A stretch of DNA of 41,714 nucleotides from the NCBI GenBank assembly GCA_016874935.1, contig VGSS01000011.1:1-41714 (forward strand), in the 5' to 3' direction. The number at the start of each line of letters is the position of its first letter. Position 1 is the first letter of the stretch. Of the stretch, positions 14,128 to 25,055 are shown in pieces. Both the position numbers and the translations under genes were made by a program. The notes under the pieces are model-generated. The model was not told the origin of the DNA. It did no database searches and saw only the letters and a program-made list of their open reading frames with translations. Source of the stretch: Deltaproteobacteria bacterium (GTDB lineage Bacteria > Desulfobacterota > BSN033 > UBA1163).

Positions 14128-14165
14128 AAGTAATCGCATGAACTAGATTGGAGGAGGTTGTCGGA

Positions 14166-14447
14166 ATGCCCATCTATGAATACCAATGTCGAAAATGTAA
14201 CGAGGTCTTTGAGATCTTTCATAAGATAGATGAGGACTGCAATGCGGCCTGCCCCAAATGTTTGGGCCCGGCCAAAAAACTGATTTCAGCCACCAGCTTC
14301 ATCCTCAAAGGCTCTGGCTTCTATGTGAACGACTACCCTTCGCAAAGCCGGAAAGAAGCGAGTAAGTCGGAAAAAGAGTCTTCTGAAACACCGAAGAGCC
14401 TAAAGGCTGAGGATAAAACGGCAGAAAAGAAAGCCGACATAAAATAA
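14166..14447 (+). CDS. FmdB-type zinc-ribbon protein
   Basis: A 93-residue protein with the characteristic N-terminus MPIYEYQCRKCNEVFE. Paired CxxC motifs (CRKC and CPKC) would bind zinc. A Ser/Lys/Glu-rich tail follows. The frame extends upstream to 14148, but MPIYEY is the universal start of the family and GGAGGAGG lies 9 nt before this ATG. It was named after the formamidase regulator FmdB; the actual role of most members is unknown. Confidence 0.9.
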   Translation: MPIYEYQCRKCNEVFEIFHKIDEDCNAACPKCLGPAKKLISATSFILKGSGFYVNDYPSQSRKEASKSEKESSETPKSLKAEDKTAEKKADIK

Positions 14448-14554: not shown

Positions 14555-15739
14555 TTATCCAGAGTTGACTCCAAGAACCCGATCAATAAAGCTTCCTGGA
14601 ACCGCAGTAATTTTATCAGTTAACCGATAAGGGTGTGAAGTCCTTGAAGCGATATATCCAGCAATAATATTTTCCTCCCCGTAGGATTTTATCAGGGCAT
14701 TCATCCCTTTCAAGCTGGCTTGGTCTACCTGTTCCGCATACTTACACTCAATCGCAATAAACTGGCCCCCCCGTTCAATGAGAAGATCAACCTCTTCTCC
14801 CTGTGAAGTCCTCCAAAACCAGAGCGGCACGGTTTTTCCTTGTGAGTAGAAATGCTTCACGACCTGCATGACTACATGGGTCTCCCACAAAGCCCCAACC
14901 ATGGGGTGCTTTGAAAGTCCTCCCCAATTTTCAAAACCCATCAGGAAGGCGGCAAGTCCTGTATCACAAAGATAAAGTTTGGGAGACTTCACTAACCGCT
15001 TGGTCATGCTTTTGTAATAGGGTTCCAAGAGAACGATCTGGCCAGAGGCTTGCAAGACAGAGATCCATTTCTTGGCTGTATTGGGAGCAATCCCGATGTC
15101 ACGGGCAAGATCTGAATAGGAAAGAGTTTGACCCGTCCTGCTTGCAATGGCTCTTAAGAAGCGATCGAAATCTCTGAGATTGCCAACGCTCAGTATGTTT
15201 CTAACATCTCGTTCAAGATAAGTGGTCAAATAGGATGTATACCAAAAAGAATGATCGACCTCCGGTCTTACATAAAGTTCAGGATACCCACCATGAAAAA
15301 GATAATGGCTCTCATCGAAGCGATGAAGGGCATCCTTTAGCTCTACAGCAGATAAGTTCAGCATATTTAATACACCGCACCTGCCTGCTAAACTCTCTGA
15401 TACTCCTTGCATCAATAGGAAGTTTTGTGAGCCGGTCAGGATATAGAGGCCGGGTTTTTTATCCTTATCAATCATTACCTTGAGGTGCCGGAAAAGAGAT
15501 GGAGCATACTGAACTTCATCTATGATCAAGGGGGTGTCAAAACGTTTGAGGAATTCCTCAGGCAAGGTTTCAGCTTGGGAGGCAATAGAGGGCAGATCAA
15601 GGGATACATAATCCGCATTGGGGAAAACTTTGCGCACCAGTGCGGTTTTCCCGACCTGCCTTGGACCCGTCACCAAAACCGCCGGAAATTGCCGAGACAT
15701 TGCCTTCAGAGTTTTCTCATATTTTCTTGTAATCCACAT
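14555..15739 (-). CDS. AAA ATPase with DUF4143 domain (first of two)
   Basis: About 394 residues. Walker A is GPRQVGKTAL, Walker B is LIIDEVQYAP, and a sensor-like TGSQNFLLM follows. The C-terminal DUF4143 part carries a restriction-endonuclease-like motif (GEEVDLLIERGGQFIAIECK). Families of this type are common in accessory islands, and their biological role is poorly known. The in-frame ATG at 15754 lies inside a palindrome; the ATG at 15739 is preferred because it coincides with the predicted transcription start. There is no Shine-Dalgarno. A second, divergent member lies at 18679-19842. Confidence 0.88.
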   Translation of the reverse strand: MWITRKYEKTLKAMSRQFPAVLVTGPRQVGKTALVRKVFPNADYVSLDLPSIASQAETLPEEFLKRFDTPLIIDEVQYAPSLFRHLKVMIDKDKKPGLYILTGSQNFLLMQGVSESLAGRCGVLNMLNLSAVELKDALHRFDESHYLFHGGYPELYVRPEVDHSFWYTSYLTTYLERDVRNILSVGNLRDFDRFLRAIASRTGQTLSYSDLARDIGIAPNTAKKWISVLQASGQIVLLEPYYKSMTKRLVKSPKLYLCDTGLAAFLMGFENWGGLSKHPMVGALWETHVVMQVVKHFYSQGKTVPLWFWRTSQGEEVDLLIERGGQFIAIECKYAEQVDQASLKGMNALIKSYGEENIIAGYIASRTSHPYRLTDKITAVPGSFIDRVLGVNSG

Positions 15740-15774
15740 GCAAATATTTTGCATTTTGATTGCAAATTTGTCAA
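15739..15774 (-). promoter_or_regulatory. Promoter with TTTGCA palindromes over the start of the first ATPase gene
   Basis: On the minus strand, TTGACA (15774-15769), a 17-bp spacer and CAAAAT (15751-15746) place transcription at the ATG at 15739. Half-sites alternate across the same bases: TGCAAA-TAT-TTTGCA (15739-15753) is a perfect palindrome, and TTTGCA (15748-15753) pairs with TGCAAA (15761-15766). This suggests autoregulation of a leaderless gene. Confidence 0.55.
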
Positions 15775-18678: not shown

Positions 18679-19842
18679 TTAACTCAAAGGTTGAATATCC
18701 TTCAGCAAATTTCTGAAAGACACCGCTCGTATTTTTTTATCTAATGGAAAGGTATAGTCTCCTGCATGGGTCACATCCAGAGATTGGAGATGAAGATCGG
18801 ACAAGGCATGACGCATGGAAGGGGTAATCTGTGGAGAAGTCGTCCTCTTGATCTCAAACCCTATCCGCCTTTGCCCTTTGACAATCAGAAGATCCAACTC
18901 TGCTCCTCCATGGGTCGCCCAGAAGAAACAATCCTCCCAACTGACGCCGAGGTGATCAATGACCTGTTCAAGAACAAAGCCCTCCCATGAGGCTCCGACC
19001 TTTGGATGGTTCTCAAGATCCTTAAGTGTTCTGAGGCCCAATAGGGTATGCAATAAACCACTGTCTGCAATGTAGATTTTCGGAGCTTTCACCTGTCGCT
19101 TCGATAGGTTCTCATACCAGGGCAAAAGCTGACGGACCACCAGGGCTGCACTCATCAGATCCAGATAGTTGCGGATGGTCGTGTCTGCCACCCCAAAAGA
19201 CCGAGCAAACTCAGAACTATTCCAGATTTGGCCGTGGTAGTTTGCCAGCATCGCCCAAAAGCGACGGAGCGTGGCAGATCGAATGGTAATTCCAAATTGA
19301 GGGAGATCCCTTTCTAAAAATGTACGAATAAATCCCTGACGCCATTCATCGCTCTCGGTCTGGTTACGGGCCAGGTACGATCTTGGAAAACCTCCCCTTA
19401 ACCATCGCTGATTGTAGTTCTCAATGCCAACCTCTTCGAGAGAAAACCCACCCAGTTCGTGGTAGAAAATCCGGCCTGCCAGAGTCTCAGAACTCTGGCG
19501 AAGCAAGTCGGGTGAGGCACTACCCAGCACCAGAAAACGGACGGCGGATTGGGGGCGATCCACTAAAACCCGTAAGATTGGAAAAAGGTTGGGCTGCCGG
19601 TGGACTTCGTCAATGACAACCAGTCCCTTCAGGCCTCTCAAAGCAATCATGGGATCGGAAAGCCGAGCCGTATCTTCGGGGTTTTCCAGATCGAAGTAGG
19701 AAGTTGGACCTTTTGTTCTCTCAATAAGAATTCGAGCCAGAGTGGATTTTCCGACCTGGCGTGCACCGATTAATCCCACCACGGGATGTCTTCGGAGAAG
19801 TCCTTGAAGCGTTTCCACTTCTTGTTTACGGTTTATCAGCAT
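18679..19842 (-). CDS. AAA ATPase with DUF4143 domain (second of two)
   Basis: 387 residues. Walker A is GARQVGKST, Walker B is LVVIDEVHRQP, and a sensor GSASPDLLRQ follows. DUF4143 ends in a nuclease-like motif (GGAELDLLIVKGQRRIGFEIKR). It shares the plan of the ATPase at 14555-15739 but is clearly divergent, so the two are separate acquisitions rather than a recent tandem copy. No ribosome site precedes the ATG, which falls exactly where transcription should start. It is flanked by 114-bp direct repeats. Role unknown. Confidence 0.9.
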   Translation of the reverse strand: MLINRKQEVETLQGLLRRHPVVGLIGARQVGKSTLARILIERTKGPTSYFDLENPEDTARLSDPMIALRGLKGLVVIDEVHRQPNLFPILRVLVDRPQSAVRFLVLGSASPDLLRQSSETLAGRIFYHELGGFSLEEVGIENYNQRWLRGGFPRSYLARNQTESDEWRQGFIRTFLERDLPQFGITIRSATLRRFWAMLANYHGQIWNSSEFARSFGVADTTIRNYLDLMSAALVVRQLLPWYENLSKRQVKAPKIYIADSGLLHTLLGLRTLKDLENHPKVGASWEGFVLEQVIDHLGVSWEDCFFWATHGGAELDLLIVKGQRRIGFEIKRTTSPQITPSMRHALSDLHLQSLDVTHAGDYTFPLDKKIRAVSFRNLLKDIQPLS

Positions 19843-21326: not shown

Positions 21327-22532
21327 CTATTTTCTTTTTCGTTTCAACAAACTGACGACCTCATCCAGGATTAATTGAGAGACCTCCTCTTTTGACATTA
21401 AAGGAAGATCTTTCACCTCTCCGGATGGGTATAGAAACTTCACCTGATTCGTTTCTGAGGTAAAACCCGCCCCAGGCTTTGTCACATCATTGACCACAAT
21501 CAGGTCTAAATTCTTTTCTTTCAATTTCTTTCTCGCATTGGAAACGAGGTCCTCGGTTTCTGCGGCAAACCCGACCAGAATTCGCTTTCCCTTCTTCTCT
21601 CCTATCTCTCTGAGGATATCCCTTGTCCTCTCCAATTCAAGAGAGGAACTAGAAGCAGTCTTCTTCAGTTTTGCCCGGCTGATCTCCCTTGGCCGGTAAT
21701 CCGAAACGGCAGCGGCTTTAATCACCACAGAACAGTCTTTCAGATGCGCAAAGACAGCCTTTCTCATCTCCTCAGCCGTCGTTACAGAAACCAGTTCAAT
21801 GTCACTACGGGGAAAAGGCAGAGAGGTGGGCCCTGAAACCAATACAACCTCAGCCCCTCTCCTTCTGGCCACTTTTGCCAGGGCATATCCCATCTTTCCT
21901 GAAGAAGGATTGGTGATGAATCGAACCGGGTCAATGGATTCCTGGGTTGGCCCGGCGGTGACAAGGATTCTCTTTCCTTTTAAATCCTTCGGAGACAGGA
22001 TATCTTCCATCCTCTCCAGAACGTCACCTAGCTCAGCCAGCCTTCCCTTTCCATACCAATGGCAGGCTAACTCCCCCTCCCCGGGTTCCATGAAATGGTA
22101 ATTCCAATCCTTCAAGGTCTCGATATTCTTCTGGAGAGCCCTGCTCTCCCACATATTGACATTCATGGAAGGGGCAAAAAGGACCGGAGCTTTTGAGGCC
22201 ATCACCATGGTGGAGAGAAAATCGTCTGCTATTCCATTGGCTATCTTTCCGATCACATTGGCGGTTGCCGGGAGGACCACGATCAGCTCTGCCAAGTCGG
22301 CCAGTGCGATATGACCGATCTGCGTCTCATCGGTGAGGGCAAACGGATCCGTCACCACCGGATTTCCGGAAAGAGTTTGAAAGGTGAGAGGGGTGACGAA
22401 TTCCTGTCCATTCCGGGTCATGACCACATGAACCCTTGCCTCCTGTTTGACCAGAAGCCTGACAAACTCAGCGGCCTTATAAGCCGCAATCCCTCCGGTT
22501 ACCCCTAAAACGATCTCTTTTCCCTTCAGCAT
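21327..22532 (-). CDS. coaBC: Bifunctional phosphopantothenoylcysteine decarboxylase/synthetase
   Basis: About 401 residues, the usual length. The N-terminal flavin decarboxylase has GVTGGIAAYKAAEF, PATANVIGKIANGIADD, a PSMNVNMW substrate clamp and the active cysteine in GELACHWYGKGR. The C-terminal synthetase has VTAGPTQESIDPVRFITNPSSGKMG. It converts 4'-phosphopantothenate and cysteine to 4'-phosphopantetheine for coenzyme A. The frame extends to 22571; the ATG at 22532 (MLKGKEIVLGVTGG) fits the family. No clear ribosome site is present. A core housekeeping gene, marking the end of the accessory island. Confidence 0.94.
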   Translation of the reverse strand: MLKGKEIVLGVTGGIAAYKAAEFVRLLVKQEARVHVVMTRNGQEFVTPLTFQTLSGNPVVTDPFALTDETQIGHIALADLAELIVVLPATANVIGKIANGIADDFLSTMVMASKAPVLFAPSMNVNMWESRALQKNIETLKDWNYHFMEPGEGELACHWYGKGRLAELGDVLERMEDILSPKDLKGKRILVTAGPTQESIDPVRFITNPSSGKMGYALAKVARRRGAEVVLVSGPTSLPFPRSDIELVSVTTAEEMRKAVFAHLKDCSVVIKAAAVSDYRPREISRAKLKKTASSSSLELERTRDILREIGEKKGKRILVGFAAETEDLVSNARKKLKEKNLDLIVVNDVTKPGAGFTSETNQVKFLYPSGEVKDLPLMSKEEVSQLILDEVVSLLKRKRK

Positions 22533-22584
22533 GATTATTTCTATATCATAAAAAGACCAAATCCACAACACCTATGGGGTGTGT

Positions 22585-22801: not shown

Positions 22802-23518
22802 ATGGCTGAGCGGGACCCGATCGATCTGATCAAAAACCAATTAAGCCGATGGGAGGGAATGGCAGACCTCCATCCTGACCACGAGCTTTTCAAACAATGG
22901 CAAGCCGAAACCCGAACCATACTGGAAAAGGTTTTCAATCCCAAATCGACTCATGTTCAAAATTTCATGGCCCTTCGGTTTCGAGAGGTCAGCGTAAAAG
23001 CATTTGATTCTCCGGAGATCAATAAAATCAACTCTGCGCGCTATAAAAGGGATATCGAGAATGCAAAAAATATCCTGCTTTCGGCTATCAAAGAATTGAC
23101 TCTCGATCGAACCCTCTTTAAGAAAATCCAGACCACCCCAAAAACAGTGGAGATCTCCCTCACGGGCGAATATTTCATCTCCACTGGAATAACAGATCCT
23201 GAGGTGAGAAAGGCTATTGAACTCGCTTTTGAGGGGAGCGGTTTGACCTCTGTTTATGGCGGCGCCCTTTCGGGGGAAGGGGAACCCCTTAATCAACGGA
23301 TAGATCACATCAAACGTGCCAGGTTTGGAATTTATGACCCTTCATCTCCCAACAAGGAGGCGCTCCTCGAACTGGGGGTCGCCCTCGGCATGGGGAAAAA
23401 GGTGACGATCATTTATCAAAAAGGTTTTAGATTCCCCGAAATGATGAGGAAATTTCCCAAAATCGAATATGAAAATCTCACCGAACTCACCGACCAATTG
23501 AAGAAAAAAATGGGCTGA
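22802..23518 (+). CDS. TIR / nucleoside 2-deoxyribosyltransferase-like protein with N-terminal helical domain
   Basis: 238 residues. The N-terminal ~115 residues are predicted helical and charged (LIKNQLSRWEGMADLHPDHE, FKQWQAETRTILEKVF). The C-terminal ~120 residues look like a Rossmann-type nucleotide fold: VEISLTGEYFISTG, then IKRARFGIYDPSSPNKEALLELGVALGMGKKVTIIY. That last pattern is typical of deoxyribosyltransferase-like and TIR-like domains, with the glutamate in LLELG as candidate catalytic residue. Such domains occur in anti-phage systems, but no partner defence gene lies beside it. The start follows GGAGAATTAAAT. Function is inferred, not established. Confidence 0.68.
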   Translation: MAERDPIDLIKNQLSRWEGMADLHPDHELFKQWQAETRTILEKVFNPKSTHVQNFMALRFREVSVKAFDSPEINKINSARYKRDIENAKNILLSAIKELTLDRTLFKKIQTTPKTVEISLTGEYFISTGITDPEVRKAIELAFEGSGLTSVYGGALSGEGEPLNQRIDHIKRARFGIYDPSSPNKEALLELGVALGMGKKVTIIYQKGFRFPEMMRKFPKIEYENLTELTDQLKKKMG

Positions 23519-23855: not shown

Positions 23856-25055
23856 ATGGAAGAGGTTGACCTTTTCAAAAAGATAACGGTGTTAAGCCTG
23901 GAACAGGCCACGGTCCTTCCCTATCTGACCCTCCGTCTCGTTGAGGACGGAGCCAGGGTGATTCGCATCGAGCATCCGGTCTATGGCGACCCCAACCGGA
24001 GAGTGGGAGAAGATGTTCTGAAAGAAGACCGAATGTTCTCCTACTTTCTTCCGATCAACGCAGGGAAAAAGGCTCTGACTCTGGATATAGGAGCGCCGGA
24101 AGGTCGGGAGATTCTGAAAAAGCTGATCCTCAAGCTAAAGGTGGATATTTTTGCCACCAATCAATTGCCTAAAAATTATCCCAAACTCGGGATCGAGTAT
24201 GAAACGCTCAGGCAGATTAAAGAGGACATCATCTGGCTTGGGATGACCGGCTTTGGCCCGCAAAGCAATGAGGCGGCATACGATCCTATCTTGCAGGCCA
24301 GGGGCGGGTTGATGGAATTGACCGGTGAGAGAGATGGTTCTCCCCAGGTCCTGGGCATACCACTTCCCGATATGGGCGCAAGTGAACACGGTTATGGCCT
24401 CTTGATGAAGGCCCTCTATGAGAGAGCGGTCACAGGCAAAGGAAGCCGCATCGACCTCTCCATGTTTGAGAGCACAACATCCTGGCTCACCCAGCCAATC
24501 ACCCATACGGTTACATTTAAGAAGAAGGTGGCACGAAGGGGAAATACCCACGAATTCTTTGCTCCGGTCTCTGTCTATGAGACAAAAAACGGATATGCCT
24601 ATATCGCGGTCGGGAATGACCGGCAATGGGAAACAATGACGAAAATTCCGGGATTCGAATCTCTTTACAAGAAAGAATACGAACGGAATGCGGGCCGGAT
24701 TGCGGATGTGAGCCATTTAAATCAGGCGGTCAATGCGATTACTAAAAATTTAATGACGGAGGAGCTCATCGACATCTTCAACAAGGCCACGATCCCCATT
24801 TCAAAAGTGAATACGATCGAAGAAGTGGTTAATGACCCTCTGGTGAAACCCAATCTCATCCGGAGCAAAGACTCCAAAACAGGGCTTGAAATAACTGTGG
24901 CGCCTCCTCCCTTTATGACCCCCTATCTGAAATCAACCGGGCAGACACTCCCTTTCCCTCCTCGATTCGGGGAGCATAATGAGGAGATCTACGGCGGCCT
25001 GTTAGGATACAGCCCGGAACGGCTGAAGGAGTTGAAGGAGAAGAACATTATTTAA
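23856..25055 (+). CDS. Family III (CaiB/BaiF-type) CoA-transferase
   Basis: A 399-residue class III CoA-transferase. These move CoA between carboxylic acids. The catalytic aspartate is Asp172 in GIPLPDMGASEHGYG. Other family marks are ARVIRIEHP, NAGKKALTLDIGAPEGREIL and GKGSRIDLSMFES. The length is normal. It opens a plus-strand unit with an acyl-CoA dehydrogenase and etfBA, so it probably activates the acid that the dehydrogenase oxidises. The acid is unknown. The ribosome site is weak (GGGG, 8 nt upstream). Confidence 0.92.
   Translation: MEEVDLFKKITVLSLEQATVLPYLTLRLVEDGARVIRIEHPVYGDPNRRVGEDVLKEDRMFSYFLPINAGKKALTLDIGAPEGREILKKLILKLKVDIFATNQLPKNYPKLGIEYETLRQIKEDIIWLGMTGFGPQSNEAAYDPILQARGGLMELTGERDGSPQVLGIPLPDMGASEHGYGLLMKALYERAVTGKGSRIDLSMFESTTSWLTQPITHTVTFKKKVARRGNTHEFFAPVSVYETKNGYAYIAVGNDRQWETMTKIPGFESLYKKEYERNAGRIADVSHLNQAVNAITKNLMTEELIDIFNKATIPISKVNTIEEVVNDPLVKPNLIRSKDSKTGLEITVAPPPFMTPYLKSTGQTLPFPPRFGEHNEEIYGGLLGYSPERLKELKEKNII

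Follow-up and report, generated by a model that had tools for sequence, protein, structure and literature searches.

The gene transcribed divergently from coaBC in the window (the whole stretch of DNA that was analysed, 41,714 nucleotides) encodes a two-domain protein that is core to its lineage, and whose features suit a metabolic guard better than a mobile anti-phage weapon (Table 1). The best explanation, held tentatively, is a putative lineage-core nucleotide or NAD(P) N-glycosidase, or guard, of the TIR/nucleoside 2-deoxyribosyltransferase (TIR/NDT) superfamily, equipped with a metabolism-linked helical control domain.

Table 1. Features of the gene, its protein and its immediate neighbours (positions in the window).
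Feature	Position	Strand	Remarks
Complete gene, 238 aa, two domains	22802..23518	+	ATG start; lineage-core, single copy
N-terminal four-helix domain, residues 1-110	22802..23131	+	PDC-S35 homology and model
C-terminal TIR/NDT-type alpha/beta domain, residues 115-238	23144..23515	+	Fold and profile matches
Y124	23171..23173	+	Tyr 15/16, Phe 1/16; first strand
R166	23297..23299	+	Arg 15/16, Gln 1/16; DNPH1 catalytic-Asp column
LLELGVALGMGK motif, residues 188-199	23363..23398	+	Contains E190 and G192
coaBC (phosphopantothenoylcysteine decarboxylase/synthetase)	21327..22571	-	Divergent neighbour
CoA-transferase family III (CaiB-like)	23856..25055	+	Next gene

The open reading frame (ORF), with an ATG start, lay exactly where an earlier, sequence-only reading had placed it, and the two domains which that reading had described, a helical N-terminus followed by a TIR/deoxyribosyltransferase-type fold with a catalytic-glutamate motif, were recovered in agreement by AlphaFold2, Foldseek, VIA and profiles. 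All 16 orthologues (window protein included) were full length, the other 15 being 57-85% identical to the window protein, and the window's own genome carried a single copy of the gene. In nine chosen pairs of 120, dN/dS amounted to 0.06-0.18 for residues 1-112 and to 0.21-0.40 for residues 113-238; values well below 1 in both halves indicate purifying selection on both, and together with the full-length orthologues they show that the ORF is not due to chance. The helical half is more constrained than the TIR/NDT half. The full-length AlphaFold2 model, built from five sequences, was weak (mean pLDDT 66.9) and displayed four helices within residues 6-108, then an alternation of beta strands and alpha helices from about residue 116.

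As judged from the model, residues 115-238 belong to the TIR/NDT superfamily at the fold level. The Foldseek check advised by the earlier reading, run against the PDB, placed the CMP N-glycosidases MilB/BcmB first (E 1.3e-4 to 7e-4) and DNPH1 next, with TIR domains after them (SARM1 TIR at rank 38). VIA scores were highest for BcmB (Z 11.1, rmsd 2.5, 111 aligned) and DNPH1 (Z 10.5, rmsd 2.5, 108 aligned), followed by the SPARTA TIR (Z 9.1, rmsd 3.0, 117 aligned), MilB (Z 8.9, rmsd 3.1, 119 aligned) and the RPS4 TIR (Z 8.2). When the PDB was searched with a profile of the domain and nine distant relatives from other genomes, BcmB (1.3e-5), rat DNPH1 (2.9e-5) and an NDT (3.3e-5) were obtained. 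A phmmer search with one orthologue yielded the TIR chain 4lzp (E 0.003) and TcpB (4lqc, E 0.044), and the 4lzp/TcpB-like stretch corresponded to the first half of the domain, including the loop preceding the helix to the third strand.

Pfam matches were in the same superfamily and below the gathering cut-off in all cases shown. PF05014 (Nuc_deoxyrib_tr, nucleoside 2-deoxyribosyltransferase) was matched by 13/16 orthologues at E<=1 (best 4.7e-6), the best score being 27.2 bits against a cut-off of 28.8, and the window protein by itself yielded nothing noteworthy in Pfam, with no PF05014 match at E<=10. TIR_2 (PF13676) was found in 5/16 orthologues (best E 3.7e-4, 21.4 bits against a cut-off of 28) and PF10137 in 3/16 (best E 0.0027; the one shown at 14.3 bits against 24.7), while hhalign of the domain with PDC-S35-type TIR slices returned 94.4% (E 9.3e-8). 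A PDB phmmer match to receptor-type tyrosine phosphatase zeta (E 2.5e-4) was dropped, as it fell to E 0.58 with the 16-row profile, and matches to DUF1542 (E 0.16) and fatty acid synthase (E 0.47) were taken as chance. Phage matches were found for L070, a relative of the C-terminal domain.

The conserved-looking motif LLELGVALGMGK pointed out by the sequence-only reading held the family nucleophile position, E190, which was invariant along with G192 (16/16 each in the orthologue alignment), while A194 and K199 were each found in 15/16. E190 aligned with the glutamate of BcmB and with that of rat DNPH1; the MilB E103A variant is described as inactive (PMC4081090), and DNPH1 as using Y24, D80 and E104 (PMC10603095). 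R166 sits where the rat DNPH1 alignment has an aspartate 24 residues before the glutamate, a distance equal to the D80-E104 spacing, and thus occupies the column of the catalytic aspartate. Two positions further, D168 was acidic in 15/16 orthologues (alignment reading) and might compensate for the lost aspartate. The usual acidic residue ahead of the motif, D179, was variable (Asp in 12/16), and the asparagine of the NPNV motif, present in several relatives, was missing here. Y124 is the probable counterpart of DNPH1 Y24 and MilB F17, a placement drawn from the ends of the structural alignment only. TIR NADases depend on a single glutamate, and NAD(P)+ is their substrate with a good leaving group. 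Since no general acid is apparent, an activated nucleotide would be the likelier substrate by analogy with TIR chemistry, pointing to a TIR-like reaction on a molecule such as NAD+.

By profile comparison, the helical domain shares homology with PDC-S35 (PDLC05005) over the first ~100 model positions; this PADLOC candidate was matched by 16/16 orthologues. The window protein covered model positions 1-126 of 264 (E 5.2e-7), and residues 1-178 of the best orthologue covered positions 1-174 of 264 (E 3.5e-13); in the three orthologues shown, the match ran into the second domain. No paper naming PDC-S35 was found by literature search. The domain was detected in 39/395 genomes of the phylum by its 15-row profile, the window's family (f1) accounting for 13. 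An independent HMM built from ten f34 proteins outside that profile recovered every one of the 16 f1 loci (E 2e-9 to 4.8e-4) in a search space of 5025 ORFs, with the first unrelated ORF at E 3.3. An HMM from three f12 proteins performed less well: E values of the f1 loci ran from 1.4e-4 to 1.8, and the first unrelated ORF came at 0.3. Modelled alone, the domain formed a four-helix bundle (pLDDT 82.0, pTM 0.73) for which Foldseek returned nothing at E<=0.001. The best VIA row, a FAT domain (Z 10.0, rmsd 2.8, 106 aligned), lay within the range of helical bundles, and no relationship is claimed.

Elsewhere in the phylum the helical domain was also fused to other effector-type domains. One protein (L161 5990-7183, G260:C48) joined it to TIR_2 (E 2e-6) and matched PADLOC TIR-TM at 9.4e-41, and another (L177 5954-6760, G312) joined a weakly matching helical domain (E 4.1e-5) to the DpnII-MboI nuclease domain PF18742 (2.6e-10). 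The G260 fusion adjoined DnaK/ClpB-like ORFs, named by sequence reading. The C-terminal parts of f12/f25 proteins (L160, L037, L038) weakly matched Cas11b (4.3e-4 to 0.022), probably by chance between helical bundles. The gene for a PF10137 TIR protein (L128 6328-7140, G048:C12) immediately preceded that of an HsdM-type methylase, in what seems to be a type I restriction operon.

Judged by its neighbourhoods, the helical domain has chiefly metabolic associations in this phylum. Purine-biosynthesis genes were found near it in 21 of the 28 loci outside f1 (the 27 non-f1 loci of the domain profile plus G398), namely 8/9 loci used in the profile and 13/19 loci not used. Controls were negative (0/16 f1 loci, 0/9 coaBC-flank loci and 0/5 PDC-S35 TIR-type loci, these five being part of the PDC-S35 loci found). 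The survey relied on tblastn with PurA, C, D, E, F, H and a PurH-like ORF, the references being checked with NCBIfam, over at most ~6 kb on each side of loci of unequal length, several of which were ended by contig edges; PurB, PurK, PurL, PurM, PurN, PurQ, GuaA and GuaB were outside the query set. Four of the nine training loci (L037, L038, L039, L123) had supplied the Pur references, which makes the 8/9 partly circular; the 13/19 is independent. Positive loci were confined to four of the eight family labels outside f1 (f2, f12, f25 and f34, with 12 in f34 and six in f12) and therefore do not count as 21 independent events, the true number being much smaller. The purine partner nevertheless differed by label, which argues against one inherited accident.

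In f34, purH-purD-purE lay downstream of the helical-domain gene and were co-directional with it; in f12 the helical-domain gene came after a PurH-like gene, only a few bases apart in most loci; it faced purA in f2 and purF in f25. The PurH-like ORF adjoining it in f12 (L037, L120, L121, L159, L160, L162) was about 430 amino acids long and comprised the AICAR-transformylase half only, that of L037 scoring below NCBIfam cut-offs. Purine-negative loci were those of f3, f58, f69 (three loci), f95 and a second f12 locus, and they included G260 and G312 with the two fusions described above and G355, from the window's class, where panE and panB (L176, 943-1863 and 2156-2989) lie beside the helical-domain protein. 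The panE-panB pair of G355 echoes the coaBC neighbour of the window gene. Given the absence of purine genes around the f1 loci, the purine link reaches the window protein by domain homology only. No paper apparently describing this protein or the purine link was found in a literature search of titles and abstract starts.

The gene is a core chromosomal gene, vertically inherited. A profile of the 16 orthologues, searched in 23 genomes of the class, found it in 16/17 genomes of f1, one copy each, and not in the six other genomes. coaBC was divergent in 12/12 f1 loci with both genes on one contig (gap <=350 bp in 11), and the CoA-transferase family III gene came next on the same strand in 15/15 loci where visible (gap <=341 bp in 12), followed by acyl-CoA dehydrogenase and electron-transfer-flavoprotein ORFs named by sequence reading. 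Three f2 genomes had coaBC facing the CoA-transferase gene with this gene missing between them, and in two of the three, transporter-like and thioesterase-like ORFs (named by sequence reading) stood in between. The only f1 genome without the gene, G192, had another ORF upstream of coaBC and a contig end ~1.2 kb away, so that gene loss and missing assembly are inseparable there.

Copies were absent from 72,556 plasmid records, 50,697 phage records and IMG/VR contigs, and scans of viral contigs with A1 and with L080 gave no match. Five loci (L084-L088) were obtained when viral contigs were scanned with L073; these are outside the analysis counts. The position just outside an accessory island, claimed earlier, was confirmed: the accessory stretch (~14.5-20.9 kb) is located between ORF 14148-14447 and coaBC, two genes that adjoin in relatives, so that coaBC stands between this stretch and the gene. 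Two ATPase-like ORFs of the window (14555-15754 and 18679-19842, labelled by sequence reading) had relatives flanking coaBC (L119 5248-6447, L036 5173-6282), one relative in G337 being 96.7% identical; the coaBC neighbourhood thus looks like an insertion hot spot.

These distributions bear directly on the defence effector that the sequence-only reading had proposed. Part of that proposal stood, as the N-terminal half does match PDC-S35 and other proteins carry this domain joined to TIR or to a DpnII-MboI nuclease, but a mobile defence gene does not fit a near-universal, single, syntenic copy free of plasmid and viral relatives, and a mobile anti-phage effector was ruled out as first choice by distribution and synteny. 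The survey of neighbours that it had called for showed no defence partner beside the orthologues, and elsewhere the helical domain was mostly beside purine genes. Orthologues stood beside coaBC and/or a CoA-transferase operon, the exclusively housekeeping context that had been named in advance as speaking against defence; this context and a partner domain that is mainly metabolic in the phylum weaken the defence reading.

In the favoured N-glycosidase or guard, Glu190 would attack C1' of the nucleotide ribose, and the missing general acid would favour a substrate with a good leaving group, e.g. NAD(P)+. The helical bundle may respond to the purine-nucleotide or CoA state and control oligomerisation or activity, so that the protein would tune or guard cofactor pools rather than serve as a mobile phage-defence module. 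Several points weigh against it: the PDC-S35 match and the TIR_2 and DpnII-MboI fusions would favour a defence origin, the NDT-like domain has changed faster than the helical domain, which a tuned enzyme would not usually show, the full-length model has a low pLDDT, D179 is variable, and the purine link is indirect. A defence origin without mobility, i.e., a PDC-S35-type protein fixed in f1 as a vertically kept abortive-infection NADase, seems rather unlikely overall; infection would shift nucleotide pools, the helical domain would sense it and the TIR/NDT domain would deplete NAD+. The PDC-S35 match in every orthologue, extending into the second domain in the three shown, and the hhalign result agree with such a putative NADase, as do the NDT-like proteins of retrons and the defensive DUF4062 TIR-like NADases as described in PMC8989520 and PMC13174449, whereas a near-universal single copy at one site, housekeeping neighbours, the lack of plasmid, phage or viral-contig copies and of an adjoining defence partner tell against it.

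The domain might instead have kept its fold and lost catalysis, Glu190 and Gly192 being retained for ligand binding in a nucleotide-binding regulator. Arg or Gln in the general-acid column, a varying D179, the absent NPNV asparagine and the higher dN/dS of the C-terminal domain would all suit a regulator, which is nevertheless unlikely, given that E190 persists in 16/16 amid varying residues and that TIR NADases likewise need one glutamate. More speculative, and judged doubtful, is a single receptor for housekeeping and immune use: the helical domain would sense purine-pathway or adenine-cofactor status and be employed in two ways, as a partner of purine operons (stand-alone or extended) and as the trigger of TIR/NDT and nuclease effectors, the fusion seen here coupling purine/CoA status to NAD(P)/nucleotide cleavage as a guard of metabolic integrity. 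A putative DNPH1/MilB-like sanitiser of the nucleotide pool, which would cleave damaged or unwanted bases off nucleoside 5'-monophosphates, is improbable: although the nearest solved folds are exactly MilB/BcmB and DNPH1, the partner domain has a purine-pathway linkage and Y124 may lie near DNPH1 Y24, the catalytic aspartate is replaced by arginine in nearly all orthologues, and D168 would need to take over.

If the favoured N-glycosidase or guard is correct, a domain catalogued within the anti-phage candidate PDC-S35 would, across this phylum, be largely metabolic and purine-linked; a TIR/NDT enzyme would have become a fixed part of the core genome next to coenzyme A genes. Such a protein would connect nucleotide metabolism with TIR-type effectors in a way open to experiment, and would caution against automatically taking PDC-S35 matches near pur genes for defence genes.

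Among known systems, MilB/BcmB, DNPH1 (Rcl) and the PF05014 NDTs share with the window protein the fold, the glutamate of the ElG motif and the order of elements, but the window protein differs from them by an arginine in the catalytic-aspartate column and an extra helical N-terminal domain; the catalytic aspartate expected of DNPH1/MilB nucleotide N-hydrolases (human DNPH1 D80) is R166 or Gln instead. TIR NADases (TIR_2 PF13676; CAP12/Pycsar PF10137; SARM1, TcpB and SPARTA TIR) have the position of the single catalytic glutamate in common with it. The TIR stretch of TcpB aligns to the first half of the window domain, and VIA gave Z 8-9 for TIR structures; unlike TIR NADases, the window family is NDT-like in its second half, lacks a defence partner and stays below the Pfam TIR cut-offs in the matches shown.

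Retron-Eco1-type NDT-like effectors and DUF4062 (Swarozyc) also pair an NDT/TIR-like domain with an accessory domain, and the retron-Eco1 effector reportedly acts by NAD+ hydrolysis, going by the title of a paper. NDT-like accessory proteins are described for retrons in PMC8989520 and a defence role of DUF4062 TIR-like NADases in PMC13174449, but no reverse transcriptase was seen among the neighbours of the window gene, and DUF4062 was matched by one orthologue only (E 0.12). PDC-S35 has the same order, a helical N-terminal domain and then a TIR-like domain, but the relatives of it that were scanned carry a PF10137-type TIR, whereas the window protein is NDT-like, core and syntenic. The proteins of purine loci (PurH-, PurA- and PurF-linked) possess a homologous N-terminal domain and carry other, mostly helix-rich-looking C-terminal parts, where the window protein has an enzyme-type domain.
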